DNA of 64,000 nucleotides, taken from the NCBI GenBank assembly GCA_948567375.1, contig OX419762.1, forward strand, positions 55,508,841 through 55,572,840. Reading direction: 5' to 3'. The notes beneath the pieces are model-generated. The model had not been told where the DNA came from and did not search any database. It saw nothing but the letters and a program-made list of their open reading frames with translations. Of the stretch, positions 7,325 through 63,270 are shown piece after piece; the first letter of the stretch is position 1; every line of letters begins with the position of its first letter. A program made the translations under genes and the position numbers. Source of the stretch: Lunularia cruciata. Lineage: Eukaryota; Streptophyta; Marchantiopsida; Lunulariales; Lunulariaceae.

Positions 7325-10300
7325 TGTAGTACTCACATATTTTTTGTTTTTGACAAGTTTTAAAGAAGAAAAGTATTGTTGAAGCCGAATTGCAGCTTAA
7401 TGAAGAAGAAAAGAGGAGAATCCTGTGTTTGGCATAGACCCAAAGAAGTTGACCTTGTGTTAGATTTAGAAGGACTCAGGTCGAACTTATGGAAATATAG
7501 ACCCAAAGTAAGGATACTTTGCATTGGGATGTGCAAACCAATCCAAAGAACGTGTAACAAATTTTCCTCAGGTCAAGCCAATGAAGAAAGTGTGGGTAAA
7601 GAAATGGTTGCTTCAAGATCAAGATGACATTGAGAGTGTCAAAAAATAGACGCGAGTGACAAAAAATAGACGCGTAGAATTTGTGTGTGTTAATTGAAGA
7701 TCAACTAAAGATTAACCACACAGTGAAAAACTATAAGATTATGACTTTGTCAATGGAGCTCTGAAATTTCACAATGATATCATATGCTTCTCAATAGTTG
7801 TCCTGAAGATGTTAGAATCTTGGGCGTTAGGGAGGGTTTAATCTTTTAGAGACCAAGAGTTAGAAAGCACATGATGCCACCAAAGTGTAGTAAGCATAGT
7901 TTGGTGAGGAGTCTTGCAATTCACAGATTTGACATAGTGGCAATAATCAAAGTCTTGAGCACACTTTGTATCACTTTTTTGGCATGGAACTAGAATTTGA
8001 GCTTTCCATGTTTCATGGCAAAAATTGCTACCAGTAATTGCAAAGATGGCCCCAAAATAGAGGAGAAGAGAGACAATCAGGCTTGATGGACTAATTTTTA
8101 TTGGAGATTTGTCTTGGGTAGCAAAGCAACAGAAGTAGGAGGAGTCACCTTCTACCAGAAATGGGATTCTTTGGAAGAAGCAATAGGTTGTGTTCTTTCA
8201 CCAAATGTTTGCAAGAGAAGTGATGAATTGTGCAAAGTGTTTTCATTAAAGAGTAGGTCAGATGCTTAATAATTGGAAAATGGACCTACCATCCCATTAA
8301 TTTGTACCCTTCATGGTCCATTTCTATTTAGGACTAAACCTACTCAACTTGGAAGAGAAAGGAAGGATGGTGTTACACTTCCACCCTGATTTACAATGAG
8401 TTGCAGATACGCACAAACAATACTTTAAAAGGTGAGTCTATGAAGGCAATAGAACACTTCCTCAAGACAAGGAAGGAGAAGATATTGTCAGTGGATATCT
8501 TCAGGCCAAGGAAGTGAGGTAGACTTGAAGAATGAGTGTCACCAGTTCAGCCACAAAAGACAAGAAGGCTAAACCCAAAGCAAGAGACGGCGGTGGCAAA
8601 GAACCTATCATCAGAGGAAAAATCAGAAGGGGAAGCCAAGTCAAATTGTGAAGACTTGGAGGAAGAAGAAGAGCTCACATTGCAAAATAAGGAGTCTAGC
8701 AATGAGAGTGAAGAAGAGCCCAAAGTCTAGCAGTTAGTGGGCGAAGCGGCTAGAGAAGAGGATGAGGAGTTCCATGCGGAAATTGATTGTATGGAAGGAG
8801 GAGATGCCCCATGTTTGGAATTAATTGCAGTGGAGCTAGAAGAAGAGCAAGAAGAAGAATAGGTCTTGGTGTTTTCAAGAGGCATGAGATTGAAGAGAAT
8901 TTTGCAAGTCATAATTGCATGACCAAGTAAAGCCAAGGAGGAAGAAGAAAGCTTAGAGGAAATGATGTTGAAGGTGAGATCAAGACTTTTTGGGGTAAGG
9001 CACTAGCCAAAGAAAGGCCAACCAAAGTTGAGGAAAGAAAAGACAAAGAAGAGTTCAATGGTGTAGCCTATCTATCAAAGATTGTTTGTCCTTTGTTATT
9101 GCAGTTGCAAAAGAAGAAGGATCTGAAGAGAGAGCATCCTGAAGTGAAAGATGAGCTAGAAGTATTGAAGTTATTGAATGAAGAAGTCTTAGAGTTAAGG
9201 ACAAAGCTAAGCTGAGGAGAAGAAGAAGCCAAAGAACTTTGGGTTGATACTATTCTTTGGAGGAAGACCTTTGATAATTTGTATGAGAGTTTGTGAAGCA
9301 CGGAAAGGAACTTGAGCGACAAGCTGAAGAATTGAAGGATCAAAAGGCAGCATTTGAGAAGTTGAAGGGTGAATTCACTGATTGGAGGCAATACATTCAA
9401 AGGCAATGGTAGTTGTGATGGAGCAAGAATTGGAGAGCCTAAGAAAGGTTGCAGATAAGAAGGATTGGGCCTAAGAGCATGAGTTGATAGATCAAAATTG
9501 AGAGGAGGAGAGGTTGCAAGGACTGATGAGAAGTATGGAGACCCAACTTTTCAATATACATGGAGGAAAAGAAGCAATGAAAGCTGAATTTGAGGACAAG
9601 TTGAAGATGTATTTAAATGAGTTGGAAGCAAAGAGGAGTTGGGAGAGGACAATTCCAAAAGAATGAATTGTGAGTCATTGTGAGGATGAAGATGTTGTCA
9701 TGTACTAAAGCTAAAGTGAAGATGGAGGAAGCAAGATTGCACAAGTTGAATTTTTTACTCTAAGAGATGAGGAAGAAAAAAGCAAAAGAAGTGGATATGA
9801 ATAATTTGTTGATTTGTTTAAGAGAGGAAGTAGATAGGAAGTTATTAGATATAGGAGATAATGTTTGTCTTGGGATAGATTTAATTAAATCTGAACTAGA
9901 GGAGCTTTGGAGTAATGTGAAAGTAAGAACCTAATATAATGTAAATGAGATAGAAGTACAAGTGTCTTTAGGTGAGTTACTTGAGATCACTAAAGAAGTT
10001 AGACTAGAGAAGAAGAAGGTAGACAATATATTTTGACTTCAATTGTAGTTCAAACTGAAGGTATGAAAAAAATAGAAGAAGTTGTAGTTGTGTGTGTGAA
10101 CTACAAGTCTGAGTGATGTTGGATTCTACAACTTTGATTTCATTTTGTGTGCTTGATCTTGAGTGGATAGCAATCTAAGCAATGCCTTGAATGAGGAATT
10201 TGTGCCTTTAGTGGAGGGATGGAACATAATTCCAAGGCAAAGTCATTTCATGGTGAAGTAGCCTTCTTTGGGAAAATTGAATCATCATAATCAATGTCAA

Positions 10301-10537
10301 TCTGGAAAGAATTTGAAGAACTATGATTATGGGTGTTGTAATTTGTGGCAAGATTCCAATCTAGTGCTTACTATTCTCTTTTGGCTGTGGTTTCTACCCA
10401 AGAGACTAAAGATGCAACCAAGAAGAACTGTTTGGTTATTGTTTACTTTGTATTTGATTATTTCTAACCAGGATCTTTGTGGGAACAAATGATTTCTTAC
10501 TAATTACCGTGAAAGTGATACTTGTTGAGTTGTCACA
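7325..10537 (+). mobile_element. Family I LTR-like unit A (3.2 kb)
   Basis: Starts TGTAGTACTC and ends GTTGTCACA, the family ends with one change at the start. The flanking 5-mers are CGCTG and CATTG, which match at three positions and differ only by transitions, as expected of an old target duplication. It lies in the minus-strand family III gene, whose two parts read on across it. The 3' promoter region around 10,050-10,130 is deleted. No reverse transcriptase or integrase frame is present. Confidence 0.75.
7811..10060 (+). pseudogene. Family I domain protein, remnant in unit A
   Basis: Translation shows the family blocks in order: VRILGVREG, then ITFLAWN near 7,975, the GGVTFYQKWDS block near 8,140, a deleted stretch, the block with CTLHGPF near 8,300 (family HFYLGLNLL), RRLNPKQ near 8,565, an acidic stretch (8,640-8,730) and a coiled coil to about 9,900. 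The family start codon is mutated. Many stops and shifts. Only the acidic frame 8,536-8,730 is open over 60 codons. Function unknown. Confidence 0.65.
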
Positions 10538-11033
10538 CATTGCTTCTTTGGTGAGTGACACCAACTAATCCCAAAGATCCTTCAAAGTCTTGAGTATTGT
10601 TGTAATTGTCTTCTCCTTCTCTTGGTTCTATAAGGGTTCTATACCTCAATGGTGATTTCCTCTTCCAATTTCTTCTTGTTCGTGGCATGCTCCTCCTTCT
10701 CCTTCCAAATGTCTTCCCACAAGAACTTCAATTTGGGTCCAATCTCATTTTTGTATTCTTCCATCATTGCTTCTAGGGTAGTAACATACCTTGATCAATT
10801 TCTACGTCCTACAAGAGTCAAAGAACCTTTGTACTTTGGTCATACAATCATCTTTCAATCACTTTTGATGCACATTACTTGCAATGCAAAGAACAACATC
10901 TCTTCTTGCAACATTTGGACCTCCTCCTCTTGAACTTTCTTTCCACATTTAAGCACAAAGTCTCCCTCTTCAACTCCTTTGATTCTTGTGGCAAGGTATC
11001 TCCTCTCATAAACTCCTCCTTGTACAGATTTTG
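10538..11033 (-). pseudogene. Family III gene, coiled-coil part between insertions A and B
   Basis: The minus strand reads EEVQMLQEEMLFFALQ, then EAMMEEYKNEIGPKLKFLW and KEEHATNKKKLEEEI, a clear heptad-rich coiled coil with a few stops. It is the DNA into which A and B inserted. It was first considered the internal region of an LTR pair; see the rejected list. Confidence 0.5.
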
Positions 11034-13831
11034 TGTGGTATCTACATTTTTCATTTTTGATGATTTTTAAAGAAGAAGTGCATTGTTAAAGCCAAAGGGA
11101 GGCTAAATGAGGAAGAAACAAGAGGAATCATGTATTTGGCATAAACCTTAAGTCAACTTCAGGTCAAAGTCAAAAGGACTTAGGATGGACTTAAGGAAGT
11201 ATGGACTCACAGTGAGGAGACTTTGCATTGGGATGCGCAACCCAATCCAAAGAACTTGTGACAACTTTTCCTTAGGTCTAGCCAATCAAGAAAGTATGTG
11301 TAAAGAAAGCGACTACTTTGGGATCAAGATGACATTGATAGTGACAAAAAACAAACACACAGAATTGGTGTGTCAAATGAAGATTGAGTGAAGAATGACC
11401 AATCAGAAAAACACTATAAGATTGAGAGTTTGTCGAGGAAGTTCTAGAATGTCACAATGATATCCCATGCTTCTCAATAGTTGTCCCAAGGAGTTAGGAT
11501 CTTGGGTTTTGGGGAAGGTTTGATCTTTCAAAGACTGAGAGTGAGGAAGCACATGATGCCACCAAAGGGAAGAAAGCAAAATGTAGTGAGAGGTCTTGCC
11601 ATTTTTTTATTAGATGTAGTGGTAAGGATCAAAGTCTTGAGCAGACTTCACATTACCTTTCTGGCATGGAATTGGAATTTGAGCTTTCTAGGGTTCATGG
11701 CAAAAATTGCTGCCAACAATTGCAAAGATGGTCCCAAGATAGAGGGAACAAGAGGAAATCCAGATCAACGGACTGAGTCAGATTGGAGATTAGTCTTGGG
11801 GAGAGAAGCAAGGGAAATAGGAGGAGTCACCTTTTATCTTAAGTGTGATTCTGTAGAAGAAACCACCGAGGTGAGGAATTCTTTCAGTGCACCTTGCACC
11901 AAGAATGGGTCCAAGGTGGATAGCTATAGAGACATGATACAAAAGCAAAGGCCATGTTTAAGCCGGAGAAAACCACATATGTAATGATGCAACAAGTGGT
12001 GTTCTTTCACAAGATGTTTGTGGGAGAGGCAGGGAATTGGGAAAAGTGTTTACACCAATGAGTAGGTCGGATGATTAATAGTTGGAAAATGGACCTATTG
12101 CTCCATTACTTTGTACCCTTTGCAACCCATTTCTACTTTAGATTAACTCTACTCAGCTTGAAGGAGAGAAGAAGAGTGGTGTCTCACTTTCACCTCCCTT
12201 TATGAAGAGTCAAGGATGGAGATGAGCAATACTACATCAAGCAAGTCTATGAGGGCAATGATAACTACATCAAGAGTGGGAAGGAGAAGATAGTCTTAGT
12301 AGACATCCCAAGGCCAAGAAAGAGAAGTAGACCCAAAGGAAGAATATCACCACTACAGCCACAGAAGACGAGAAGGCTAAATCCAAAGCTAGAGATGGTG
12401 GTAGTGAAGAACTAGTCTTCAAAGGAAGAATTGGAAGGAGAAGCCAAGTCAAAGTGTGAGGATTCAAGAGAAGAAGAAGAGTTCACGTCACAAAGTGGGT
12501 AGTCTAGCAGCAAGAGTGAAGGAGAACCCAAAGTCCAGCAATCGGTGGACAAAGTGGCTAGAGAAGAAGAACTAGAATTCCACAAAGTGATTGATCACAT
12601 GGAAGGAAGAGATGAGCCTTGTTTGGAGTTACCTGCAGTAGAGTTAGAAGACAAACAAGCAAGAGAGATTTCTTTTGGATTCTCAATGGCAGCAAGATCA
12701 AAGATAAGTGTGCAAGTCGTAGCTGTAGGGCCAAGCAAAGCCAAAGAGGACAAAGAAAGCTCAAACTGAGTAACTTTGAAGGTACAAAGATTGCATCTTC
12801 AGTATAAAGCACCAACAGAAGAAGTGTTGACAGAAGATGAAGATAGAGAAGATGATGAAGGAGGCTATTGGAGTTGAATATCTATCAAAGATTGTCTATC
12901 CTTTGTTGGTGCAACTAAAAACAAGAAAGAGGAGTTGAAGAAAGAGCATCTTAAATTGAAGGATGAATTGCAAGTAGTGAGGTACTTGAGTGAAGAGACC
13001 TCAAAGTTGAGGAGTAGTTAACCCAAGGAGAGAGGAAAGCCAAAGAATATCAGGTTGAGTGAGTTCTTTGGAAGAAGAGTTTTGATAACTTAATGAGGAA
13101 TTTTTGAAGCGTGGTGAAGAGTTGAAGGAGCAAAAGATGGTGATCGAGAAGATGAAGGGTGAATTCACTGATGTGAGGTTAGAAATCAAACACTCAAAGG
13201 CAATTACGGTTGTGATGGAGCAAGAGCTGGAGAGTCTAAGAAAGTGTGCAGCGGAGAAGGACCAAGCGTGGCAACAAGAGCTGATTGTTAGACATCAAGA
13301 GGAAGAAATATCGCGGGGTCTGATCAAAAGTGTGGAATCTCAACTAGTGCAGCATGGGGAAGAGAAGGAAGTACTGAAGGGCAGAATTTGAGGATGAGTT
13401 GAAGATGTACCAAAATGAGTTAGAAGTATAGTGTTGGTAGTATTTTGCAATTGTGAGTGCAACATTGGATTGATGCAAATCAATTTCAATTGAGGAAGTT
13501 GTGCCTTTAGTGGCGGGGTAGAACACAATTTGGAGTTGAAGTCATTCCATGGTGAAGAAGCCTTCTTCAAGGAAACTGAATCATCACAATCAAAGTTGGA
13601 TTTGAAAGAGATTGAAGAATTGTGATTATGGGTTACATGTTATTGTGATGAGATTGTAATCTAGTGCTTGTTACTCTCTTCTGGGTGTGGTTTCTACCCA
13701 AGAGACTAAAGATGCAATCAAGAAGAACTGTTTGGTTACTATTTACTTTGTATTTGACCATTTTTTACTCATATCTTTGTGGGAACTAATTGCTACTTGC
13801 TGATTTCTGCAAAAGTGATACTTGCTGCACA
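11034..13831 (+). mobile_element. Family I LTR-like unit B (2.8 kb, internally deleted)
   Basis: Starts TGTGGTATC and ends at a shortened GCACA after CTTGCT. The flanking 5-mers are TTTTG and TTTTT. Relative to complete units it lacks the C-terminal coding part and the 3' promoter: at about 13,430 the sequence jumps from coiled coil directly into the 3' region (GTTGGTAGTATTTTGCA). Confidence 0.75.
11449..13391 (+). pseudogene. Family I domain protein, remnant in unit B
   Basis: ATG at 11,449, 34 bases after a TATAAGA motif. The open part 11,481-11,984 (167 codons) covers the N-terminal domain: RVRKHMMPPKGRK, VLSRLHITFLAWNWNLSF, ESDWRLVLGREAREIGGVTF, NGSKVDSYRDMIQKQ. Later open pieces are the acidic part (12,545-12,769) and the coiled coil (13,104-13,391). 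The C-terminal third is deleted. No function recognised. Confidence 0.65.
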
Positions 13832-18203: not shown

Positions 18204-18874
18204 TATGACAACTCAACAAATATCACTCTTGTGGTAATCAGGTAAGTAAATTTTGTTCATGCAGAGATACGGGTCAAAAATATCCAAGTACAAAGCAAAG
18301 TAACCAAATTAGTTCTTCTTGAGTTCTTCTTTTATATCTCAAGGAGAAACCACACCTAGAAGAGAATAACAAGCACTGACTTGCAATCTTGTCACACAAC
18401 AATTTGACACCCATAATCATAAATCTTTCAATTTTGTCCAAACAAACTTGATTGTGATGATTCAATCTCTCCCAAAAATGGCTACTTCATTGTAAAACAA
18501 TTTTGCTGTGGAATTATGTTCCACCTATCTACTAAAGGCACAACTCTCTTGATCAAAATTGCTTCACATCAACACCATGCTGCACTCACAAATGCAGAAT
18601 ACTACCAACACTACAATTCCTCTCAGATCTATCAAGGTATTGCTTCAATTGCCATCCACTCAAGATCAAACACAACAGAATGGAATTAGAGATGTAGAAT
18701 CCAACATCTAACACTCAGAATTACACTTTGAATTTGAATCCCAACACTCAAAAAAAACACACATAGAGTTGATACTCAAAATTAAGCTCAAGCGACGAGT
18801 AGTAAGATTAGCAGTTTGCTTTATCTATTCTCAAGAATATGAATATCAAACAACAACACACTACAAATGCCCCT

Positions 18875-18882
18875 TTTAAATA
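18875..18882 (-). promoter_or_regulatory. 3' TATA-like box (TATTTAAA) of unit N
   Basis: Minus-strand TATTTAAA, about 670 bases from the unit's 3' end, downstream of the gene. A minus-strand AGATAAAGC motif follows after about 50 bases. The pair recurs at the same place in units C, D, E, G, H and L. Confidence 0.5.
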
Positions 18883-19014
18883 GGAAAAGCACTTCAATTG
18901 TGATCTAACTCCCTAAATTGTTTCCTAACAACTTTACTAACTTGTAGATCCAAAATGACAATGCACCTCTTCATATCTGCCTCCTCCTATCTCAAAATTG
19001 TTTCTACTCCAATC

Positions 19015-21590
19015 TGATGTCTACTTATACTTTGGCTCCCAAACCCGAGGAAAGCCCCTCCACCTCGTGTACTTTGGGTTCTACAACCACTAATTCTTCT
19101 ACCAATTCTAACATTTCTTCACTCTGATCTGCAATTAAAGGTATGGATAACCTATCTACATCCTTATTTCACAACCCACTCTTCGCTAAAGTCTCAAATG
19201 ACAAATCCAAATTCATTTGAACTTCTACCTCTCTTACTTTGGGTCTGAAAAATAGAGTACTCTAAAGATTATCTAATTCCAATTTAAAGAAACCTAACCC
19301 GATAGAAATATTATTCTCTACATCTAACATCTTTCTATCCATCCAAGTTCTGAGATTGATTAACAAGGCATTCAAGTCCTTATCCTTTGAATTCCTAGGC
19401 CTTGTCTCGTGCATGAGCAATCTCAACTCATGTAGCCTCAATTCATCCATTCTTACTTTGGCTTCAGTGGTTAATCTTGCCTTCATCTCTACAATCTCTT
19501 CTTTGATAGATTCCGTTGACTACTTCTTTTGTCTTTCCTCCTCCATCACAACTCTACTCACTTTAAATTCATCTTCATACTCTGCTGTATGATCCTCCAA
19601 CTCCTTCAAATACTGGTGAATCTTTGCCTCTAATGTCTTCACAAGATCTCTCAACCTCTCTTCTTCTTGATGGCGCTTGGTTAATTCATGTTGCTAGGTT
19701 GCTATCTTTTCTCCTACTCTCTATTGGAATGCGTTGAGCTCCTCCTCCTCCTTAGCTTCAACAAATTCCCTTCCATTTTTTTGCTCTAACTTTACTTTGG
19801 CTTGTATTTTCTCTACTCAAAGTCTCTCTTGCGTGACTTCCTTCACTTTCATTACCAACTCTCTTCCTTACTTTTCAAACTTCTCTTGCAGATTTTCATT
19901 TATTGTCTTTTGCAATGCTGCATCTACCCACATTACTTCTCTTTTGTCCTCTCCTCTGCCCATACTCTCTCTAAACTTCAAATTTTCAGATTTTAATCTC
20001 TCCAACACCTACAATACATTCATTATCTCAGAATGCTTAATCTACATCTCCTTCTTCTTCTTCTCCATCTGCAACAATAGCAGACATAAAACATCTCAAA
20101 GTTACGCAACTCCTTCACACCCTTCTCCCTCATCTACCTTTCCTTCAGGGATTTTGTCAATCTTGCTCTTCCCTTCTAAATATGATGCTTTACTACAAAG
20201 TTGGGATCTTCGTACTTTCAATGATATGTCATCCTCCAAACGTTCCTTGTCATCCAAATTGATGATGTGATTTGCCGCCTTTCAACTTTCTCCTTCTTGC
20301 ATGACTCACCTTGGCTTGGCCACCAATCATTCTTCTTCTTCTATTACCAACTCGGCCACTTTCCTCTCTCTATCCTCATCCTGCTCAATTTCTTCTTGCA
20401 AAGAAATCACCTTCTCTTGATCCTTTTGCACCTTGGCTTCTCCTTCACTATCCTCATTGGATTCTTCACTTTGCAGGGTTGACTCCACTTCTCCTTCCTT
20501 CGACCCCTCCAAGCAGATTCTGCTTCTCCTTCCAATTTGACCTCCTCTTCCGGTGCAGTATTCTGGATTTGCTTTCCTTCCCTCTGGACAATCCTTCTTA
20601 ACTTACAAGGCTGTACTGGAGAGTTCTCCACCTCAGGTCTGCTTCTTTTCTTCTTTCTTGGCATGGGTATAGACATCTTCCTATTCTGTCCCGTTCTTGC
20701 ATAGTGGTCGTCATTGATTCTAAACTGCCAAATATATTGTTGCTCCTTGTCAATGGCTTCTTGATGCAGATCGGGATGAAAGTGAGACACAATCTTCTTC
20801 TTTTCATTGCTACTCAATAGGTTCAACTTGAGGTAAAAGTGCACTGCAAAAGAAATGAAGTAATGCGGTGGTGTCAAACTCCTCCAATTCAGCACCATCT
20901 GCCAAATCCTTTGATAAAAACACTTTGCCCAATGAATAGGCTCTCCTGCAAACATTTTATGGAAGAACACCGCCTGTTGCTTTGTAACATAGGTGGTGCG
21001 CTTGGATTTAAACAACACCATCATTGTGCTTATAATACTTTTCTGCACTAGGTCCCGATAGGTTTCCACCTTATATCCATTCTTCATACGCTTTGAGGTG
21101 AACCAATTTTTGACTTGGGTTTCTTTTGCAAATTCTCCTTTCCCCAAGAACGTAACCCCATGCTCTTCCCCACTCTCTCCGCCAAACACAATCTCCAATC
21201 CGACTCTATTCATCAAGCTGGATTGCCTCTTTTCCCTACCGTTACCAGCCCATCTACACACTTATTGGCTGCTATCTCTACCATGAAATTGGGAAAGCTC
21301 AAGTTCCAATTCCATGCAAGGAAAGTAATGCAAAGTTTATTGAGAGCTTTAATGCGGGCCACAACGTCTAACCTCCTAATCACTAGGTTCCTCACTGCCA
21401 GTGTAGGGCACTTCCTAATTCCTTTCATTCTTCTCTCCTTCGTGCTACGCTTTTGAAAGATAATTCTCCAGTCCCTTGGGCGTGCAATTCTAACTCACTC
21501 TAGATTCACAAAAACTTCACTTACTACTATTCCTCTTCCCTGGTCTCCCTTAGGACTACTTTGCAATGGCAAATGAAATTCACTTGTCAT
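19015..21590 (-). pseudogene. Family I domain protein in unit N, longest open piece
   Basis: ATG at 21,590, 28 bases after minus-strand TATAAAG. The frame 21,261-20,407 is open for 284 codons and holds the core of the domain: NGYKVETYRDLVQKSIIS, YVTKQQAVFFHKMFAGEPI, CFYQRIWQMVLNW, PPHYFISFAVHFYLKLNLL and VSHFHPDLHQEAIDKEQQY. A basic patch (MPRKKKRSRPE) and then an acidic stretch follow. The coiled-coil part lies at 20,250-19,260 and the C-terminal LHELRLLM..RTWMDRKML block at 19,486-19,262. Basic plus acidic plus coiled coil suggests a nuclear, oligomeric protein, but no family is recognised. Confidence 0.7.
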
Positions 21591-22446
21591 TTGTCTCCTT
21601 CTTGATTCGAATCCTGACTTTATAGTCCAATGTTTCTCAGTCATTCTTCAAATGCTTGTCTACCGAGAAATCACACCTTTTCCATGCACTTCTCCTGTCA
21701 CTATCGATTTCTCCAGCTCATGCCTTAGCCATTTTGTGTGCGGTACAATCTTGAATGTCCCACCCCGAAGGAAAGTTGTTACACTGTCTTTGCATCGGGT
21801 TGATCACCCTGAGGCAAAGTATCCTTACTTCAGGTTGAAACCTGACAGATCTGATCCGATCTGAGTCCTGACAATTACTGAACCCGAGGTAACTTTCTTC
21901 GGGTTGATACAAAAACGTGAATCTTCTTCTTTCGTCCATCCTTTGCGCTCAGTTCCCCTTCAACAATACGAAAAATGTGGGTACCATATAAAAACTCTCT
22001 TAAAAATCGATATTAAATATGGGATGTCCTGAACTAAACGAATTGCATTGCTTGTGTTCTCTAAAAATTCCAAATTTCTTAAACGGAACTTGTACACTCT
22101 GAATAACTATTAGAAATGTCAATAATCGACGATGATAAAGAAATATCAGGTTTCTTTACTTCACAATCATATTCTATCTTGAAACAAATGGTTTTTCTAT
22201 TAACTAATTACCAATCGATACTGGCAGCGTTCAACATCAAGAATCAATTACAAGCAATCCTGGAAATCAACGACAATGTCAAATGAACTAATAATGTTGT
22301 GGATTCATAGAAGATACGAGTTGAGCTATAGAGTTTGGTAGAAACAGAGAAAAAGTTAGGAATGTTATTGAGTAATTAAGATTACCAAATTCCTACTTTC
22401 AAGATCTTTTTAAGGTAGATGATGCACATTCTTACCTGTGAATCGA

Positions 22447-44700: not shown

Positions 44701-45353
44701 GTCTCATCAAGACTTCAATCCATGCCATCATATATAATCTCTTCACTATGGGATTTTGCACTCCCAGTGAAGAGCACTTCCTGAATCCTCTCATCTTTGT
44801 CCCTTGTGACTTTGAACACTCTTGAGTTGCTTCCCCATCCCCTTGCTGTGAAACCCTCCCTCCAACATGCAACCCAAGGATTTCTCTCACCACTAATTGT
44901 TTCCCGTGGAATTCCTCTATACGATTTCTCAAGGGCAAAGGATATTGCTTCAGAGCTTCTTCCATTTCCCTTGAAAAATCTCACTTTTATAGCAATGCAA
45001 TTCTCTATCATTCTTCAGCTGGGCTTTGACTGATAAATCACACCTTCTACATGAGCTCCTCCTATCATTGTCAATTTGCATATGTTTTTGCCATTTCATA
45101 ACTTTTCTTGATTTGCGGTACAAAGAAAGTTGTTATACTTTCTTTGGATTGGGTTGATCACCCCAAGGCAAAGTCTTCTTACCTTGGCTTTGGTCCTGAC
45201 CATTCTGACCCATAGATGGACAGGTTTTGACCCAAACTAATATTTCTTTGGCTTTGCTGAAAACTTCATTTCTCCTTCTTCTTTGCCTGCAAGGGATTCA
45301 ATTCCCTGTCAACTGTACAAAACTAAACAAAACCAAAAAATGTGGGTACCACA
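41738..45353 (-). mobile_element. Family I LTR-like unit H (3.6 kb), inside unit F
   Basis: Plus strand begins TATGACAACCC and ends GGTACCACA. Flanks are AAGAT (41,733-41,737) and AAGAC (45,354-45,358). Inserted antiparallel into the C-terminal part of the gene of unit F. Minus-strand boxes: TATAAAA at 44,985-44,991 and TATTTAAA at 42,407-42,414. Confidence 0.88.
42550..44965 (-). pseudogene. Family I domain protein, remnant in unit H
   Basis: ATG at 44,965, 26 bases after the start of TATAAAA. The first 98 codons are open (44,965-44,672) with SQQGDGEATQECSKSQGTK and LYMMAWIEVLMRLWITFLVW. The block HSYLGLNVL..EERNRVVLHF is at 44,220-44,130, then a basic patch (KQRKRSRFKEW), an acidic stretch (43,932-43,657, IDKESKGGVESKLVEVEDKE) and a coiled coil (43,468-43,254). 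The C-terminal part is broken. Sequence is closest to unit J. Confidence 0.65.
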
Positions 45354-45358: not shown

Positions 45359-45666
45359 AATGTTTGTCTCAGATTAGATCTTTTAAGATCAGACTTGGAT
45401 ACACTTTGTAGTGGGATGAAGGTGAATACAAAGTCCAAAGTAGTAGAGGTAGGAGTGCAAGTGAATTACCTTTGACATTAGGAGAGAGTGGATTAGAGAA
45501 TGAGAGTGTAGATAGATTACTCATGGTTCCAATTTCAGTTCAGATGGAAGAAATAGTAGAAATAGTAAAGGAATTATTAGTATAAGATAGACTCAAAGAA
45601 GGAGAAGTACTTGGAGTAACATCGGGTTTGGAAGCCAAAGTTGAGGTAGACATTGGATTGGACTAG
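45359..45666 (+). pseudogene. Family I domain protein in unit F, last part
   Basis: Reads NVCLRLDLLRSDLDTLCSGM, then SKVVEVGVQV, later SGLEAKVEVDIGLD and TAG at 45,664. It joins directly to 41,737 when unit H is removed. Confidence 0.6.
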
Positions 45667-46439
45667 TAACAATTTTGAGATTTGAAAAGGCAAATATGAA
45701 GAGGTTGTTTTCACTTTGGATTTGTAGGTTGGTGAATTTTTTAGGAAATGGTATTTTAGTTAGTAATTATCAAAGTGCTCTACCTATTCAAAGGATGCAT
45801 TCATAGTGTTGTAGGTTATTAAGTTCTATTCAATAATGCTATTCTAAAGTTGAGTAAAGCAAAGTGGTATAGTTCAGTGCTCGTTATTTCAGCTTAATTC
45901 TAAGTATGAATCTTGTGTGTGTCTTTGGGAGTGTTAGTAGAATTTCAAAGTACCCATCAATAAGCTTGTTTGATGTTGGATTCCGCAATGCTGATTTCAT
46001 TTTGTTTGTTAGATAGCAATCAAAGCAATGCCTTGACAAATTTGTGAAGAATTGTAGTGTTGGTAGTATTCTACATTGGTGAGCAAAGCATTGGATTGAT
46101 GCAAAGCAACTTTGATCAAGGAAGTTGTGCCTTCAATGGACAAGTGGAATACAATTCCAAGCTGAAGTCATTCCACGATGAAGTAACCTTCTTTGGGAAG
46201 AATTGAATCATCACACTAAAAGTTTGGTTATTTAAAGTGTTGTGATTATGGGTGTGTAGTTCATGACAATAATTGCTATTGAGCACCTTTTAGTCTCTTT
46301 TGGATGTGTCTTCCACCTCAGAGATTAAAGACAAAAGCAAGAAGAACTTATTGTGACATTCTACTTTTTATTTGACCATTTTTGACTCATAACTTTACTT
46401 GCTGATTATTGAAAAAGTTATACTTGTTGGGTTGTCACA

Positions 46440-48089: not shown

Positions 48090-48190
48090 TGTGACAACAT
48101 GGCAAGTATCACTTTTGCAGTAATCAGTAAGTACAATTTTTTCCCATAGAGATATGAGTTAGAAATGGTCAAATATAAAGTAAATTATAA
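48090..48190 (-). mobile_element. Family I unit I, 3' end (split by the chromovirus)
   Basis: Plus strand begins TGTGACAAC and then follows the family 3' end (GCAAGTATCACTTTTGCAGTAA, GTCAAATATAAAGTAAATT). The unit continues at 54,757-54,790 after the chromovirus and is then broken by unit J. Its 5' end is outside the window. Left flank is TCAAT. Confidence 0.75.
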
Positions 48191-48909
48191 TGTAATACCA
48201 AGAGCTAGCCATATGATCTAGATTGTAAATTTTGGTTTGGTAACATCTGGGATGATGTTGTACATGATGATCAAAATAGATCAGATAGAAGTATCACCTA
48301 AAGAGTACTTCTACTAATAGGGCAGAAACCAAAATAGACTTGAAAACCTTAGAACCAATAGCTAGATATATGATTTAAAGGTGAGAATTGGTTTGGTAAC
48401 ATCTGGAAGGATGTTACACATGATGGGTTAAACATATTAGAAAGAGGTATCAGCAAAAGGGGACTTCTACTAATAGAGTAAGAACCAAAATATGCCTGAA
48501 ATCTTTAAAGGCAATTTTGGAGGCCTAAAAGGATGAATTAAGCCTCAAAAATGTGCAGACCCCTCCTAAAATGTAAATGTTGGCCTGACCTCCCCCTTGC
48601 TTTCCAATGGTATCTCACCCATGTGATTTTGAGATTCCTACAAGAAGATTCCCTAAAAGATTCTCTCCGGTCAAAGCTTGTTTGACCAACTAGATAGGAC
48701 CAGGACTAACATGTCACCCATCCAAGTAAGTAATCCAAGGGTGGAGCTTACTGACATGTCACCTATCTATGTGCCTAATCCTATGGTGGAGCTTCTTTGG
48801 AGGAGATCCTCTTTGTCTATATAATGAAGAGAAGGTGCTCCTTCGGAGCATCGGATGATTGAGTGTGAAATTTGTGTTTTCTCTCTTCTCTTGTCCTCGG
48901 AGTATTACA
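48191..48909 (+). repeat. 5' LTR of the chromovirus
   Basis: Begins TGTAATACCAAGAGCTAG and ends CCTCGGAGTATTACA, 719 bases. A TATATAA box is at 48,818-48,824. The U3 part holds a diverged tandem duplication of about 150 bases (48,200-48,350 and 48,350-48,505). Confidence 0.92.
48818..48824 (+). promoter_or_regulatory. LTR TATA box of the chromovirus
   Basis: TATATAA about 90 bases before the LTR end; repeated at 54,665-54,671 in the 3' LTR. Confidence 0.65.
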
Positions 48910-48910
48910 A

Positions 48911-54790: not shown

Positions 54791-55197
54791 TGTGGTACTC
54801 ACATTGTGTTTTTTTTGGTTTTGAGGAGTGTTGGACAAAGAAAGGTATAGTTGACAAGAAAGTAAATCCATTTTGGGAAAAGAAGAGGAAGAAATTGACT
54901 TTTCAGCAAAACCAAAGAAATGTTCCTTTAGGTCAAAAATTGTCTGAAATCTGGATACAAAAGGTCAGGTCCAAAGCCAAAGTAAGGAAGACTTTGCCTT
55001 GGAGTGATCAACCCAATGCAAAGAAAGCATAACAACTTTTCTTTGGACCGCAAATCAAGAACCAATGAAATGGCAAGACTAGCACGCCTTGACAATGACA
55101 AGAGGAACTCATGCAAAAAGTATGATTTATTAGTCAAAGTACAACTGACAAACAACAAAGGATTGCACCATTATAAAAGCAAGGTTTTCCCCAAGCA

Positions 55198-55930
55198 ATG
55201 AAAGAAACCATGTAGAAATATCCTTTACCCTTAAGAAGTCGAGTAGAAAATCCCATGGGAAGCAATTAGTTGGGAGAGAAATCCTTGTGTTGCCTATAAG
55301 AGTGAGAGTTCACAACAAAGGGACGAGGAATTGACTCGAGAGTGTTTAGAGCCACAAAGGAAAGAGATGAGAGGATTCAAAAAGTGCTCTTCACTGGGTA
55401 TGCAGAATCCCACAATGAAGAGGTTATATATGGTGGCATGGATTGAAGTCTTGTCAAGACTTTGTATCATGTTCTTGGCATGGAACTGGAACATTAACTT
55501 TCTAGAATTCATGAGCAAGATAGCTACAAGGAAATTGTGTAGAAGGCCCAAAAGCCATTGGGAAGAGGGGCAATCTGGCTTGATGGATAGAGTTGGATTG
55601 GAGGCTAGTATTGGGAAGAGAAGCTGGAGAGGAGATGGGTGCCTCTTTCTCCAAGAAAGAACACCTGGGGGAAGAGACTCTGGAGGTGAAGGACTCATTC
55701 CGGTGTGCCTAGAACAAAGAATGGGTACAAGGTGGAGAATTATCACAATTCGATCCAGTGGAGTATCATGGTGAGTCTAATGGTGATCTTCAAATTGGAG
55801 TGCACAATGTACATTACAAAGCATCAAGCGGTCTTCTTTCACCAGATGTTTGCGGGTGAGTTAGTCAATTGGGCAAAGAGTTTCTACACATGCACAAGGT
55901 TGATGGTGTTGAACTAGAGGGACCAAACGA
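55198..55930 (+). pseudogene. Family I domain protein in unit J, first part
   Basis: ATG near 55,190-55,200, about 20-26 bases after TATAAAA. Open from 55,331 to 55,774 with RGFKKCSSLGMQNPTMKRLY, VEILSRL-like and IMFLAWNWNINFLEFMSKIA, then shifted to NGYKVENYHNSIQWSIMVSL and MYITKHQAVFFHQMFAGELV. Element K inserted before the PPHY block. Confidence 0.65.
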
Positions 55931-58152
55931 TGTCGTGTTGTGGTTTGCATAGGCCGTAACAAAGTGACTTATCATAGTTTAGCTCCACGTTAGGGAGGTA
56001 GGTTGCATGCTAGATCCAATGGATGAGATGTTGCCATGTGAGCCATCTATGTACATGTATGTGATTGGCCATATGGGTAACAATCTTATCAAGTTTGATG
56101 GCTCTAATGAATAAAGATGAGTGCGAGTGGAGAGACGGGTGTGTTTTAGTTTGGAGAGTCTCGAGGGGAGAAGGATGTTGGGAGAGAGTTGTAGCAGAGA
56201 GAGAGTGTTAGAGCATCAGAGGAAGCATTTGAGCATGAGATGTCCCATGCTCCCAATCTGCCACTCCTAAATCCTTTTCTCATCAAGATTCAGATTTTAC
56301 ACCATGAAGACTTACGGGATTGGTTGGTAGCATGTTTCAGGGTGGTGTTTGTGGAGTCGGTGATGGGAAACCCAAATCCTATCGTCCTTCCGGTGCTTAC
56401 TTATGAGAATGTTTGGGACTAGACAATCTATGTCCTTCTATAGTTGAGGAATGCCTAAAATTTTGCTCATAAGCTTCAAGGTGGAGTTGTGGGGTCCATT
56501 TGTCAAAAAGTAAAAAGACAAAAGGACAAATGTGCAAGAGCTTGGGTCCCAAGACAAAAGTCAGGAGTTTTTTTACCATTGGGGGAGTTCGGTGAGGCCT
56601 TTTGGGGAATGAAGGACATGATTAAAAAGAGGAGATGACAAGCTACAATCTGAAGACATAAATCACGCAATTTGAGCGGAGTATAAGAGGGATATGATCA
56701 ATTGAGTGAAGGGGGGGTTTGAATTCATACCCAAGAGCACAAAGTAGTCAATTGAGAGAGCTTCTTGAGATTTTTTCACTATCTGCTAGTGGGATTGGGG
56801 AGAAGACAAAGTGCTTATAGTCCCAAGTGCAATAAATTCCAGTTTTGGGTCAATCTCAAATTAGATCTAATTGATTGAAGTTGAAGCTTATGGGATGTAA
56901 GGTGTTGGAGAAGGGCTAATGATCAGGTATGGAGTTTTGGTCACTTCCCAAGTTGAGGTTTGAATTTCCTTATGAAAATTTCTAGAGTTGTTGGTGGATA
57001 GGTCAAGCACCTTTATGCAAAAATTTCATGTGAATTCTTCAAATAAATAAATCAGGGTCTTGGATCAAGTATACCTGGGTCTGTAGAGCTCACAAGCTAG
57101 CCCAGCTCAAGAATTGATCCATATCTAAAGACTTGGGTTGGATTAGGCTACCAAAATTTGCAAGCGTTTAGACAAGAACACAAACAGCTATTGTGGAAAT
57201 TTTGGTTGGTTCAAGGTCTGTGAAGAGTGAGATCTGATGCAAAACATCCTGTTGAAAATACTATCATAAGCTCGGTAGAGCAATTTTATCTTTCATCTTG
57301 ATTAGATATCAAGTCTCCTATCTTGTGACTATGATTGAAAGTTTCAGGTTGCCAGATTGTTTTTGTGGATCAAGTGTATTCCTAATCAGAAATATAGGAA
57401 AAATTTGCCAAGAACCAAGAGCAAACCTTAAAAAGAAGATTTCAAAATTAGGGTGAATTTTGAAATTAGCCAACTTTGAGAGCTTGTTCAGGAGAGTTCT
57501 AGTAATATGATTGAAGTGTTTTTTATATCAATGGAAAGCTTATCTCACAGGCTTCTCATTGAATCCTAGATCAATTGAATCCAATCTATGTAGAAATAGT
57601 TACTTGCATATGAGCTGCACAGAGTTTTCCCCATCAAAAAGACATAGAAAATCCCCACATGAAATAGAAATTTGTTAAGATTTGAAGTACAGATGGGAGG
57701 AGGCTTGGAGTACAGGTTGAGATGAGCTTGATGACAGAGCAAGAAGGCTTTGAAGCTCTTTTCCAAACAAAAAGTAAAGAGAGTTGTTGCCTTATTCTTG
57801 TGATTGGATCCTCTCTGTGCTTGTATGCCTGTTTGTACGGCCAGTTGGCTTGGATTGGTGTGCGGGCGTTATGCTCAGATTATTTCCTTCTATAAGTATT
57901 TTGTATTTCTCCTTGGTTATGCTAGAAGTGATGACCAGCAGACCAGGAGTGTGTGTTGTGATGGCAGGTCAGGTTGCCCGGTACTACCCTTCCCGATAGC
58001 AAGAATATTAGTTATGAGAAAGGAGGGTTCCGGCGATAAGGGGCACATGCGTGTTCTATCAAGTCATTACGGGTTTACCTCTAGCCTTGATCTGTAGTCT
58101 CCACAGCTAGGCACCTTGTGTGTTCCCAAAGAGAGAAAAGAAAAGTACGACA
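55931..58152. mobile_element. Unrelated LTR-like element K (2.2 kb)
   Basis: The host gene of unit J reads GGACCAAACG up to 55,929 and resumes with AACGCCAGCCCATTACC at 58,152, so AACG is duplicated. The insert begins TGTCGTGTTGTGG and ends AAAGTACGACA, so it has TG and CA ends and a short inverted repeat TGTCGT/ACGACA. Only short frames are seen, for example 56,240-56,422, with no known domain. The best guess is a solo LTR of another family; the exact edges are uncertain by one base. Confidence 0.6.
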
Positions 58153-59500
58153 ACGCCAGCCCATTACCTCATACCATTTGCGGCTTACTTTTACCTCAAG
58201 TTGAATCTGCTGCGAGGAGAGGAAAGAAACAGGGTGCTATCGCATTTCCACCCAAATTTACAAAAGGATGAGGATGAGGATGAGGAGGAGAAGTTGAACA
58301 TCCATCTACAATGCTGCAATGACAAGAAGTACCAAAAGATTGGGCTTGATCAATTGGCTGAGATATCTCTTCTAAAGAGAAGGAAAGGGACAAGACCCAA
58401 GGAATGGAGTTCACTTGTGCAGACTGCAAAGGCAAGGAGAACGGAGGTAGTCCAAAGAATGATGTTGCAGACTCCCATGACAGACAAAGAGTCAAAAGGG
58501 GAGATTGAGTCAAAGTTAGTGGAAGTAGAGGATGAAGAAGTAGAGTTAACTCTATACAGCAAGGAGTTTGGAAGCAATGGCAAACCCAAAGTATAGCAGT
58601 TGGAAGAAGAAGAACAAGAACGACAACAAGATATTGATCAAATCAGGGAAGGAGAGTTGCCAAGTTTGGAGTTGTTTGGGCAAGAAGAAGATATGCTAGC
58701 TGAAGATCCAACTCAAGATTTGGAAGAAGTAGGGAACTTGAGGAAGGAGGAAGTGGATGTCATTCACTTGGAAGATGATGAAACTTCAAGCAAAGATGGA
58801 GTGTTACCAATCCCAAGATCCCAACTCCGGGTGCAAGCTCAACTGAATGAGGTTGGAGGTAAAGAAGAAGAAAGAGAAGAGGGCTATGAAGGAGTGGAGT
58901 ATCTTTAGGAGGTAGTTTGTCCGCTATTAGTGCAATTGGAGAGAAGGAAGAAAGAAGTACAACGCACAGAGTGAGAAATGTCTTGCAGGTATTTAGAGCA
59001 ATGGAAGAAGAGAATGAAAAATTGAAGAAACATCTGACCAGAGGAGAAGAAGAACTAGAGACATTACAAGTTGACAATGTGTTGCAGAAGAAGGTCAATG
59101 AAAATCTGTAGGAGAAATTTGAGAAGCAAGGATAGGAGTTAGCGATGAAGGTGAAGGAAGTAACGTACAAGAGACTTTAGGTAGAGAAATTGATGGCCAA
59201 AGTAAAGATTGCACAAGAGGAAGTCAATGTAGAGAGAGGTATAGTCATAGCAAAGAAATTTGAATTGGAAGCATTTAGTCAAAAGGAACAAGAGAAGGGT
59301 GCAGCGTGGCAACATGAATTAAGCAAGTGCCATCAAGACGAATGGAGCTTGCAAGATTTGGTGAAGACATTGGAGGCAAAGATTGGAGAGTATGCAAAGG
59401 AGTTGGAAGATTGCACTGCAAAGTACAAAGTAGGATTGCAAGTAGAGAGTGCTACAATTCAAGAAGAGCGTGAAAGACAAAGACTTGTAGACTCGGTGGA
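58152..59500 (+). pseudogene. Family I domain protein in unit J, second part
   Basis: HYLIPFAAYFYLKLNLLRGE, RNRVLSHFHPNLQKDEDEDE, a basic patch (LKRRKGTRPKEW), the acidic stretch DKESKGEIESKLVEVEDEEV (to 58,596, stop at a CAG-like position) and the coiled coil to 59,500 (LKKHLTRGEEELETLQVDNV, WQHELSKCHQDEWSLQDLV). Four stops. Unit L interrupts it after RQRLVDS. Confidence 0.7.
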
Positions 59501-60169
59501 TGTGACAACCCGGCAAATATCACTTTTGCGGTAATCGGGTAAGTAAAGTTTGTTCCCATAGAGATACGAGTCAGAATTGGTCAAATACAAAGTCAACAGT
59601 AACATGTAGTTCTTCTTGGTTGCGTCTTTAATCTCTCAGGTAGAAACCATACCCAGAAGAGAATAACAAGCACTGATTTGCAGACTTGTCACAAATTTAC
59701 ACTTCTTAATCACAACACCAACAAATCTTTCCAAACAATCTTGATTGTGATGATTTAGGCTCTCCCGAAAATGGCACTTCACTGCAAAATGACTTCATTT
59801 CAAAATTGTGTTCCACCCCTCCACTAAAGGCACAACTTCCTTGATCAAAATTGCTTCATATCAACCTCGCACTGCACTCACAAATGCATAATACTACCAA
59901 CACTACAATTCCTCTTAGATCTGTCAAGGCATTGTTTTGATTGCACTTCACTCAGGATCAAACACACAGAATGAAGATCAAGGCTGTGGAATCCAACATC
60001 CAACAAGCACTTTAACTTGCACTTCAAATTTCTCCACACACTCACAAACAATCGTACAACATTGATACTTGGAATCAAGCTCAAGTGACGAGCACTGCTT
60101 CATAGCACTTCGCTTTATCTATTCTCAGAAATTATGAGCACTAAACAACATAAGACTGCAAATGCCACT

Positions 60170-60177
60170 CTTAAATA
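60170..60177 (-). promoter_or_regulatory. 3' TATA-like box of unit L
   Basis: Minus-strand TATTTAAG, 670 bases from the 3' end of the unit; minus-strand AGATAAAGCG follows about 50 bases later. Confidence 0.5.
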
Positions 60178-60311
60178 GTGAAGCAATCAATAGTTCTACA
60201 ACAACTCTTCTAACCTGGAGATCCAAAATGACAATGCGCCTCTTCATATTTGCCTCTTCAAATCTCAAATCTGTTTCTAATCTAATCCGATGTCTACTTT
60301 GTCATTGGCTT

Positions 60312-62855
60312 TCAAACCCAACCCGAAGTAATCTTACTTCCTATCACTTTTTCCTTAGGTTTCATATCTTCTACTTCATCTACCAGATCCAGCAATTCTC
60401 TTTCCTGATCTAAAATTGCACTAGTGGGTAATCTATCTAACTCCTTATCTCCCAACCCACTCTTCTCTAATGTCTCCAAGTGTAACTCCAAAGACATTTG
60501 TACTCCTATGTTATCTACTTTGGGTTTTGCTCTAACATCTTTCCAAAGCTTTTCTATCTCTATTTTCACCAAGTCTAATCTAATCGCAATATTATCTTCT
60601 ACCTCTAAGATCTTCTTGTCTACCCGAGTTCTGAGACTAATCAACAAGGCATTCATATTTGTATCCTTTGCTTGTCTTTGCCTTGTCTCTTGCACCAACA
60701 ACTTCAACTCGTGTAGCCTCGTCTCCTCAATCCAAATGTTGGCTTTTGTACTTAACATTGCATTCATTTGGAGGATTATCTCCTTCAATGGCTCCAATCT
60801 GGTCTTCCTCTCACGTTCACAATCTGCAAGCCAATCCTCTTGATACATCGCTAACTCCGCCTCAAACTCGGCTTTCACCAACTCCTTCTCCTTCTCCTTC
60901 TAGACAACCTTCTACTCCTGATTACGAAGTAACTCTCGTAATTGGTCTTCTTCTCTGTATCGTGCCGCCAACTCTCGTTGCCAAAGTTGCTTCTTCTCCT
61001 TGACACTCTCCATCACCCTATCAAGCTCCTGATCCTTGGCAGCTACTCTTGCCATAACATGGATTACCTCTACTCTTGAATCAGCAAACTGCTGCTTCAA
61101 GATCTCATACCCAGCTACTTGTCTCTCCCTTGCTATGTCACTCTTCTTCACAAGATCCTCTCGATAACTGACTTCTCTCTGTAGGTCTTCAATTACTTGA
61201 CTTCTCTCTACTGCCTCCGCTTGCAGCACTTCCCTTTCCTCCTCACCTCGGGTTATACTCTTCTTCAACTCCGAGGTTTCTTCTTCTAATCAGGTCAATA
61301 CCTGCAATATAGTCTTCACCTCCGGACATGTCGACTGCATTTCCTTCTTCTTGTGCTCCAACTTCACCAACAATGGGCACACGATCTCCCGCAGGTACTC
61401 CACTCCATCGCTTGGGATTACTTCTTCTTGCGTGGCCACTTCTCTTCGTACTTCATGTTCATCCGATACTTGCCTTCTTCGCTGCAGTCTTCATATCGGA
61501 ATCGACGCCTCACTTCTCGAGCTTTCACTTACCTCTTCTTTTGCCTTACTCAGCCCCGCTTCACAGTTTGCCTTACGTCTTGAGCAAACTTCTTGCTGTA
61601 CTATGATCTTCTTCTCTTTAGGCACCGTTACTTTGTCTTCCAGCTGCGTATTGTCTTCGGCTTCCATCTTTGCTTGCACTTCTTCTTCTTTGTATTCTTC
61701 AGCCGCTGGCACCGATGTCATTTCTCCCCCTTCATCACTATCACTAATCGTATCCCCACTCTACAGCGTTAGCTCAGGCTCCTCCTCATGTTCCGAGTCT
61801 TTAGTTTTGAGCTTGGCATCTCCTTCTGAGTCTTCGTCCTCCGAGTTGATTACCACCATACCTCGCCTCGGGTTGCCTCTCCGTGTATTCCAAGGTTTCT
61901 TCATGTCTTCGGCATCACCTTGTCGACTCCTCTTCTTTGTAGTCGGGGTACTCACTGCGACCTCCACGTTCTTCCTTGTCTTCATGTAGTAGTCGTCGGT
62001 GCTCCTGATCTGCAAGATATATTGCTGCTCCTCGACGTCAACTTCCTTTCACAAATCAAGATGGAAGTGTGACACCTTCCGATTTTGCTCCGCTGAGTTC
62101 AGCAAGTTGAGCCCGAGGTAGAAATGTGCTGCAAATGGCACGATGTAGTGTAGAGGTGACTTATCCCAAAAATTCCACACCATCTGCCTCGTTCTCCTAT
62201 GAATACACCTCGTCCAATTGATTGGTTCTCCTGCGAAAAGCCTGTGAAAGAACACCGCTTGGTGTTTTATCACATAAGCGGTTCTCTCCGGCTTCAAGAT
62301 AGCTATCAGTGCACTCACGATCCCTCTCTTCACAGGGTCTTTGTAGCTCTCAACCTTGTCCCCATTCTTCGTCCTCTTTGACAAGAAGGCATCTCTCACT
62401 CCCTAGGTCTCTTGAGCTATCTCTCCCTTTCCCAAGAACGTGGCTCCCTGCTCCGAGCCTACTTCCTTCTTGAGTACAAGTCTCCAATCCGACTCTATCC
62501 AGCAAGCCGGATTTCCTCTCTTCTCTTCTTCCTCGGGTCCATCAAGACACTTGCTCTCGATGATTTTTGTCATGAATCCTGGAAAGCTTACATTCCAGTT
62601 CCATGCCAGAAACGTGATCGGAAGTTGGCTCAAGACTTCAATCCGAGCTATTACATCTAACCTCCAAATCCCATGATTTCTCACTGCAAATTCAGAGTTC
62701 TTCTTTCCTCCTCCCATCTCTTCTGCTTTCTCACTATCTCTCAATTTCACTCTTTCAACTTCTCCCTTACGCGCTACCACGATTCCAACTCTATTTCCCT
62801 TCCCACAATCACTTTCAAGACAACTTCTCAAAGGCGAAGGAAAATTACTCGACAT
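60312..62855 (-). pseudogene. Family I domain protein in unit L, nearly complete
   Basis: ATG at 62,855 (MSSNFPSPLRSCLES). About 845 codons with about eight internal stops and no frameshift that I could see. Domain residues: RLDVIARIEVLSQLPITFLA, SDWRLVLKKEVGSEQGATFL, DKVESYKDPVKRGIVSALIA, YVIKHQAVFFHRLFAGEPIN, HYIVPFAAHFYLGLNLLN. Then TTKKRSRQGD (possible nuclear signal), an acidic region near 61,860-61,490, coiled coil 61,270-60,700, and a conserved C-terminal block LHELKLLVQETRQRQAKD ... LISLRTRVDKKILEVEDN. Nearly all stops fit CAG or CGA codons changed by C to T. Could be a structural or DNA-binding accessory protein; no enzyme motif is seen. Confidence 0.75.
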
Positions 62856-62875
62856 TTTGTCGTTGTGAGTTTGAT

Positions 62876-62882
62876 TTTTATA
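62876..62882 (-). promoter_or_regulatory. TATA box before the gene of unit L
   Basis: Minus-strand TATAAAA, 27 bases before the ATG at 62,855. Equivalent boxes lie 26-34 bases before the ATG in units B, C, F, H and N. Confidence 0.5.
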
Positions 62883-63270
62883 GAGTTGCGCTTCTTCGTC
62901 TTTCTTCACTTCAAGTTTCTACCAAGAAATCACACCTCCTGCATGCACCTTTCACTGTCAATCAACCTTTGCGCGTATGGGCCACCAGTTTTTTGAACGG
63001 TCCTTTCTTGAATTTCTCGCCCCGACAAAAGATTGTTAGACTATCTTTGCCTTGAGTTGAGCTCCTTCTGATACAAAGACAATTTACTTTGGGTTGTATG
63101 CTGATAGGGCATTTCTGAGTACTTCAGCTTATGACCCAAAGTCACTTTACTTTGGGTTTCATCCCAAAGACTCTTTTCTTTGCCTTCTTTGGCCATACAG
63201 GCGCAATCCAACTTCTCTATACACTTCTTCTTCTTTATTTTGAAAAAAAAAATGTGGGCACCATAGTGGA

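Follow-up and report, generated by a model that had tools for sequence, protein, structure and literature searches.

A gene inside the long terminal repeats of a high-copy Ty3/gypsy retrotransposon of the liverwort Lunularia cruciata

The sag gene of mouse mammary tumour virus (MMTV) is a sense gene in the unique 3' region (U3) of a retroviral long terminal repeat (LTR); it lies 3' of the polypurine tract (PPT) and is thus present in both LTRs. LTRs that stand alone in a genome (solo LTRs) are usually regarded as dead regulatory debris. The present analysis concerns a family of repeat units in the genome of Lunularia cruciata (565.8 Mb in 74 contigs were searched), which was noticed in a window of 64,000 bp (C12:55508841-55572840, the whole stretch of DNA analysed), and the gene that these units carry, here called the LTR gene. 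The units represent LTRs, about 3.8 kb long or, in a short type, 1.7-1.9 kb, of a high-copy Ty3/gypsy retrotransposon, and the gene is located inside the LTR, on the sense strand, as a complete open reading frame (ORF) downstream of the PPT. An earlier note on the window had named sag as the one precedent and had known of none like it in plants; a phrase-based search of the open-access literature for ORFs inside LTRs, which would miss differently worded reports, likewise found no plant case. Drosophila roo, which this search returned, proved to be a false match.

Among the closest plant systems, an extra gene beyond pol is described in Retand, RIRE2, Grande and PvRetro13, in the form of accessory ORFs of the TRP28 (PF04195), GENE23 or structural maintenance of chromosomes (SMC)-like kind (PMC11963269, PMC7264820). 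The accessory gene of Grande, GENE23, has its own promoter and encodes a nuclear protein, while TRP28 of Retand is predicted to bind DNA (PMC7264820, PMC11963269); TRP28 is reported to be confined to flowering plants (PMC11963269). Plant accessory ORFs are reviewed as residing in the internal region (PMC7264820). Athila/Ogre-Tat (OTA) elements and other plant non-chromoviruses have LTRs of up to ~5 kb, extra ORFs, tRNA-Asp among their primers and mostly target site duplications (TSDs) of 5 bp, and PF03078 is carried by just 16% of Athila (PMC6317226). In rice, the LTRs of Retrosat2 exceed 3.2 kb, and the element has a single additional ORF whose function is unknown (PMC3485330). For L. cruciata itself, a genome of 580 Mb that expanded by bursts of Ty3/gypsy elements has been reported (PMC9985172).

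A first look at the genome gave 7,021 family candidates, 40 of which were scored, and five 38-kb stretches around young copies and one stretch of 16.8 kb were examined. Three full elements (R4, R5 and E7) were found there, each with two units around a primer binding site (PBS), gag-pol and a PPT, which is the arrangement that the earlier note had proposed to look for. In all three, the LTR end CACA is followed by the PBS TGATTTTTGGCGCCGCTGCC, which we take to be complementary to tRNA-Asp, and a purine tract ending in GGTA stands directly before TGTGG. R4 (contig C11) is flanked by ATTGT/ATTGT and consists of an LTR, TGATTTTTGGCGCC and the following internal region, AGGGAGGGGGTA and the second LTR; its internal region can be aligned with the one of R5 and contains a foreign element. 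R5 (C6), with the flanks GAATA/TAATA, has an internal region of 6.8 kb and a 3' LTR with a deletion. E7 (C7), flanked by ATCTC/ATCTC, has a 5' LTR with a deletion, an internal region of 6,151 bp, GAGGGAGGAGGTA and a 3' LTR of 3,880 bp. The direct LTR pair, the TG...CA ends, the 5-bp TSD (perfect in R4 and E7, 4/5 in R5), the PBS and the PPT agree with a Ty3/gypsy element, as does the pol order of R5, namely reverse transcriptase (RT), RNase H and integrase. The Pfam families RVT_1 (9.5e-21), RT_RNaseH_2 (4.4e-20) and Integrase_H2C2 (1.6e-13) were above the cut-off in the internal region of R5, and rve (4.4e-4) and Ty3_capsid below it.

The statement of the earlier note that the units hold no replication genes is true of those in the window, but the full elements elsewhere hold gag-pol between two such units, which rules out a non-autonomous element of the terminal-repeat retrotransposon in miniature (TRIM) or large retrotransposon derivative (LARD) type. 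The ends of the units are LTR ends, as that note had supposed, and the gene is not ordinary gag-pol: RT, RNase H and integrase of R5 lie internally and the LTR gene matches none of them. PF03078, the ORF-1 family of Athila, had no match in five internal ORF pieces of R5 (E <= 0.01; the N-terminal gag piece was left out). Among the 18 LTR 3' ends in the six stretches, four are followed by the PBS, three belong to the 3' LTRs of full elements and 11 are alone or truncated. Solo LTRs with perfect TSDs elsewhere in the genome are flanked by GAATG, ATAAC, CTATT, TACTT and CCACC, and one further solo LTR by TCCAA/TCCAG (4/5).

Three side observations were made in these stretches. They contain many copies, 84-98% identical, of a ~690-bp repeat, one of which lies at 878-1567 of the internal region of R5 (L022-L023) and is absent at that place from R4 and E7. 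The LTR of E7 (L029, about 3171-3377) has a tandem duplication of ~109 bp in its 3' part. The internal region of R4 (L018-L020) holds a nested Ty3/gypsy-type element on the minus strand, in which gag-like, RT/RNase H-like and integrase-like ORFs were read by eye.

In the full elements the pol (integrase) frame extends to the PPT, with stops in these decayed copies, so that there is no room for a gene between pol and the LTR, and the sole gene beyond pol is the one inside the LTR. The 3' LTR of E7 carries it as an open sense ORF of 861 codons (LTR positions 404-2989), and a solo LTR, L030, flanked by CCACC/CCACC, as an open sense ORF of 857 codons (408-2981 of 3,773). A search of the genome with the C-terminal half of the gene gave 23,124 candidates, and of the 104 matches scored these were the two without a stop, with open frames of 875 or 878 codons. 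Among 500 first-order Markov sequences modelled on this LTR, the longest ORF had 266 codons, compared with the 861 observed. A tblastn search with the open 861-aa copy matched nine units of the window, in which all the copies are broken; the earlier note had put the shared gene at some 800 codons, and it has 857 and 861 where it is open. The claim that every complete unit carries it fails for two short ones, x and y, which have both ends yet lack most of the gene. The best preserved solo LTR of the window, unit L (59501..63265, minus strand, 3,765 bp), is flanked on both sides by GTGGA (5/5), is inserted in unit s and is 85.9% identical to the LTR of E7 over 3,282 columns. Compared with the open 861-aa copy, its decayed gene (60278..62855, minus strand, 3' limit approximate) has seven in-frame stops and a product that is 81% identical over 841 positions.

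To assess selection, 14 copies were compared in 91 pairs, of which 78 were kept and 13 with the wrongly oriented L008 were dropped; L006 and R2c are partial copies. The ratio of nonsynonymous to synonymous substitution rates (dN/dS) was 0.14-0.43 across the 78 pairs, and 0.14-0.20 where the proportion of synonymous differences (pS) was at least 0.35. Neutral simulation with the context spectrum of the noncoding LTR parts gave a mean of 0.60, with a range of 0.48-0.71 at 18% divergence (30 runs) and of 0.37-0.80 at 7%. For pol, dN/dS among R4, R5 and E7 was 0.20-0.39. In all nine old window units most differences fell at third codon positions, with totals of 1909, 1566 and 2844 at the three positions over 5,479 codons. 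The LTR gene was thus formerly under purifying selection, i.e., it is a real gene. Some points weigh against the strength of this result. For the LTR pair of R4, whose divergence dates from after insertion, dN/dS was 0.42, low but within the neutral range at 7%, and the noncoding sites used for the simulation may themselves be constrained. The codon-position test was made on tblastn alignments, which are biased toward conserved proteins, and its noncoding control (333, 275 and 342) is itself slightly uneven (p 0.015).

Two further observations concern divergence within the gene. Between R4, R5 (L017-L024) and E7 (L029, L031, L032), pS is higher for the LTR gene (0.23-0.41) than for pol (0.14-0.16). 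In a comparison of nine copies, differences amount to 0.08-0.25 in the middle of the gene and to 0.04-0.16 in the flanking LTR parts. Elements may have exchanged gene alleles, or the middle of the gene may be fast-evolving.

Two candidate promoter boxes lie on either side of the gene. A TATAA box (TATA1) was aligned in seven of the nine old window heads, being absent from x and y, and was kept in 11 of the 12 young copies with a head. In unit L (TATAAAAA, 62875..62882, minus strand) its first T precedes the start codon (ATG) of the gene by 27 nt; the spacing is 34 nt in units B, D and N. The second box (TATA2, TATTTAA) lies 3' of the gene and was found in all eight aligned tails (seven window units and L030). 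In unit L this proposed promoter of the genomic RNA occupies 60171..60177 (minus strand), 676 bp before the LTR end, and a AATAGATAAAG motif lies downstream.

The short LTRs are informative about the role of the second box. Units x (35453..37194, minus strand, 1,742 bp) and y (39378..41276, plus strand, 1,899 bp) are complete at both ends, but some 780-795 codons are missing from the start of the gene. What they share is ~140 bp at the 5' end, then a middle part of ~650-740 bp without any stop-free stretch of more than 124 codons and, beginning with the last 65-80 codons of the gene, the remainder of the LTR. In y there is no TATAA at LTR positions 250-480. Both units retain TATA2 and were inserted with duplications of 4/5 (x) and 5/5 (y, TAGCA/TAGCA) bases; TATA2 is thus apparently sufficient for the genomic RNA and the gene dispensable in cis, which favours a gene in the U3. 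As the earlier note had suggested for a giant LTR, the gene most likely lies in the U3, given TATA2 after it in the eight tails and the insertion of x and y with this box, the start sites being placed from the sequence.

We consider it probable that the family is a giant-LTR Ty3/gypsy element with a selected accessory gene in its U3, a separate promoter for that gene, a genomic RNA started from TATA2 and a nuclear protein that acts in trans. The U3 would then measure ~3.1 kb and contain the sense accessory gene of ~860 codons with TATA1 as its own promoter. The genomic RNA would begin after TATA2, 3' of the gene, pass the PBS, gag-pol and the PPT, and bear the gene once, at its 3' end between the PPT and the terminal repeat region R; reverse transcription would then supply both LTRs with it. 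A separate message for the gene would extend from TATA1 to a poly(A) site in R, and the LTR would form a self-contained expression cassette, able to survive as a solo LTR once the element is gone. The protein would act in trans, in the nucleus, on the transcription, silencing or integration of the family. The nuclear location of GENE23 and the predicted DNA binding of TRP28 favour, by analogy, a nuclear accessory role, and the LTR protein is most likely a trans-acting, probably nuclear accessory protein; the gene-less LTRs suggest either action in trans or dispensability. We also propose, more tentatively, that a large family of solo LTRs may consist of promoter-gene-terminator cassettes in U3-R, copied twice per insertion and left open, which supply a trans regulator (an anti-silencing or integration factor) to the element and to parasitic gene-less LTRs.

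Several points weigh against this model. With TATA1 at 27 or 34 nt from the ATG, the leader would be almost nil, and units C, z and s have no ATG at the expected site after TATA1. TATA2 reads TATTTAA in nine of the 12 young copies, i.e., not in every one. Unit x has TATAATC in an unrelated stretch near the TATA1 site, which leaves only y as a clean case, and the existence of gene-less LTRs could point to a dispensable gene. The nuclear role in trans is drawn from the charge pattern of the protein and from analogy, and the two start sites are predicted from the sequence. Structure predictions from window sequences were unusable, with predicted local distance difference test scores (pLDDT) of 55.7 and 56.9 and only core helices in both models.

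Alternatively, the genomic RNA could start at TATA1, in which case the gene would be placed in R/U5 and occur as the first ORF before gag-pol and a second time at the 3' end. In favour of this, TATA1 has the more canonical sequence and is found in most heads, old (7/9) and young (11/12). However, an ORF of 860 codons before gag should impede the translation of gag, TATA2 is retained in all aligned tails, and y transposed without a TATAA at that place; a start at TATA1 is thus unlikely.

The LTR protein has an N-terminal domain of ~330 residues, basic stretches and an acidic block at residues 361-420 (net -16). The half that follows is poor in glycine and proline and has a heptad signal at 484-567, 589-672 and 715-777, so that the long coiled coil read in the earlier note is seen in three stretches, but as a long continuous coil it is only partly supported. 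The N-terminal domain is predicted to be helical, and the C-terminal half helical and partly coiled. No Pfam family scored above cut-off for two full proteins and 14 domain sequences (E <= 10, HMMER filters on), and the best sub-threshold match of the full protein, YwqJ-deaminase (E 0.017), was taken as chance. PF04195 (TRP28), PF10536 (plant mobile domain) and PF03078 were absent among the Pfam matches. A likeness to the angiosperm 'putative plant transposon protein' domain (PF20167) was considered, but this gave no Pfam match. The PDB held no match at E <= 1. In a collection of 5.8 billion proteins, searched in a way that detects only relatives sharing short words, no match was found among the 7,991 candidates sharing most words with the full protein (E <= 0.001), nor among 2,395 candidates for the domain alignment (E <= 0.1). 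In a control search, the RT of the element matched 1,829 of 1,862 candidates at E <= 0.001, and its best named relatives were from Marchantia polymorpha (77%), Riccia fluitans (74%) and Calypogeia fissa (59%), many other listed matches carrying no species name. The control shows that liverworts are present in the collection, but gene annotations may omit repeats.

These features bear on a second alternative, namely that the gene was an env-like or structural ORF after pol, which was absorbed into the LTR through a new upstream PPT and kept an envelope or particle role. The position of the gene in the RNA is that of a retroviral env, and in plants, sense ORFs have been described between pol and the 3' LTR (PMC7264820). 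The protein has, however, no membrane segment (the highest 19-residue Kyte-Doolittle mean is 1.19). We regard this origin with a retained role as improbable; the env-like reading is weak as an account of function, and as positional history it may hold.

It is still less probable that the gene is a passenger, i.e., a fragment of a host gene that a single LTR picked up and that was then amplified without serving the element. The lack of a homologue in the searched collections would fit such an origin, and the short LTRs manage without the gene; against it stand its presence in nine window units of differing age, the signal of purifying selection and its own conserved TATA box. Lastly, DNA transposons that carry a single gene between TGTG/CACA inverted ends and make 5-bp duplications would suit the 11 LTR ends that stand alone or truncated, but this reading, to which we give hardly any weight, is rejected on the evidence of R4, R5 and E7, each with two units, PBS, gag-pol and PPT within one TSD pair.

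Within the window, ten family heads of the TGTGGTACC type were placed, several with one or two mismatches, at 7325, 11034, 25571, 31181, 39378 and 54791 on the plus strand and at 21988, 37194, 45353 and 63265 on the minus strand. Further one-mismatch matches to the head pattern, whose family membership is not established, were left out of the count. With 11 LTR 3' ends, one of them truncated (13826), this agrees with the at least ten units with shared ends of the earlier note, although the unit letters, for which coordinates were set here, may differ from the uncoordinated letters used there. Sequence shared with a different unit of the family makes up 31,897 of the 64,000 bases (49.8%). By blastn, no match to the internal region of R5 lies in the window, the content of which is thus solo LTRs and fragments. 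The 5-bp target duplications that had been claimed were perfect in four of the eight units tested at both ends (C, y, D and L), while two units had 4/5 (z and x) and two 3/5 (B and A).

On the plus strand, unit A (7325..10537, flanks CGCTG/CATTG) and unit N (11034..13826, truncated 3' end) are old LTRs with gene remains, and units B (25571..29441) and C (31181..34968, AATAT/AATAT) are further LTRs with gene remains. Unit D (18204..21988, minus strand, TAAAA/TAAAA) also has gene remains, the longest open stretch of the globular domain being 20407-21261. Units of the family are nested in one another. Collinear matches indicate that y and z (41738..45353, minus strand, gene remains, AAGAT/AAGAC) sit inside unit I, an old LTR with gene remains split by both. 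Its 5' piece is at 37395..39377 on the plus strand, where no head was found, and it appears to continue at 41282-41737 and then in the 3' piece at 45359..46439 (plus strand), which carries the LTR end. By the same kind of matches, unit L sits inside unit s (54791..59500, plus strand, with gene remains and other inserts), which would continue at 63271-64000. A fragment with an LTR 3' end lies at 48090..48194 on the minus strand.

Outside these units, broken copies of a distant relative of the domain of the LTR gene were found on the minus strand at 254-688 and 14612-15046 (28-30% identity, E 1e-9 and 1e-11). They belong to one old duplicated segment, are 88% identical there and are followed by an acidic run. 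Since a relative is present in a second old element, the domain seems older than this LTR family. The segmental duplication itself, for which the first 5,000 bases were compared, relates 1-4999 to 14377-17973 and 22053-23192, with 88-99% identity in pieces, and each copy has an ORF for a proline-rich secreted protein (4400-4930 and 22596-23123). Unit D sits in the gap of the second copy and thus arrived later.

The family described here may be involved in the Ty3/gypsy expansion published for L. cruciata (PMC9985172). The gene is copied at both ends of the element, and its frame can remain intact even where nothing else of the element survives: at least one solo LTR (L030) retains a protein gene that was formerly selected, is still open and has a promoter box of its own. 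Should copies of this kind be expressed, the control of an element could be carried by its own remnants, the review picture of plant accessory ORFs as internal would need widening, and the effects of gene position on element and host would be testable in a liverwort.

Compared with the known systems, the LTR gene resembles MMTV sag in being a complete sense ORF inside the LTR, 3' of the PPT. The likeness is one of position; the present element is a plant Ty3/gypsy retrotransposon without env, and its protein has ~860 aa and no membrane segment. With Retand and Grande it shares an extra gene beyond pol in a plant Ty3/gypsy element; theirs, however, is antisense and lies between pol and the 3' LTR, whereas the gene here is sense, lies within the LTR and has no PF04195. 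Very long LTRs, an extra ORF, a putative tRNA-Asp primer and a 5-bp TSD are common to this family and the OTA elements, but the extra-ORF domains of the latter (PF10536, PF04195 and PF03078) were not found in the LTR gene. The ORF0 of Retrosat2 is upstream of gag-pol, in contrast to the gene inside the LTR. The L. cruciata family is thus a known kind of element with a new gene arrangement and a protein without a recognised homologue in the collections searched.

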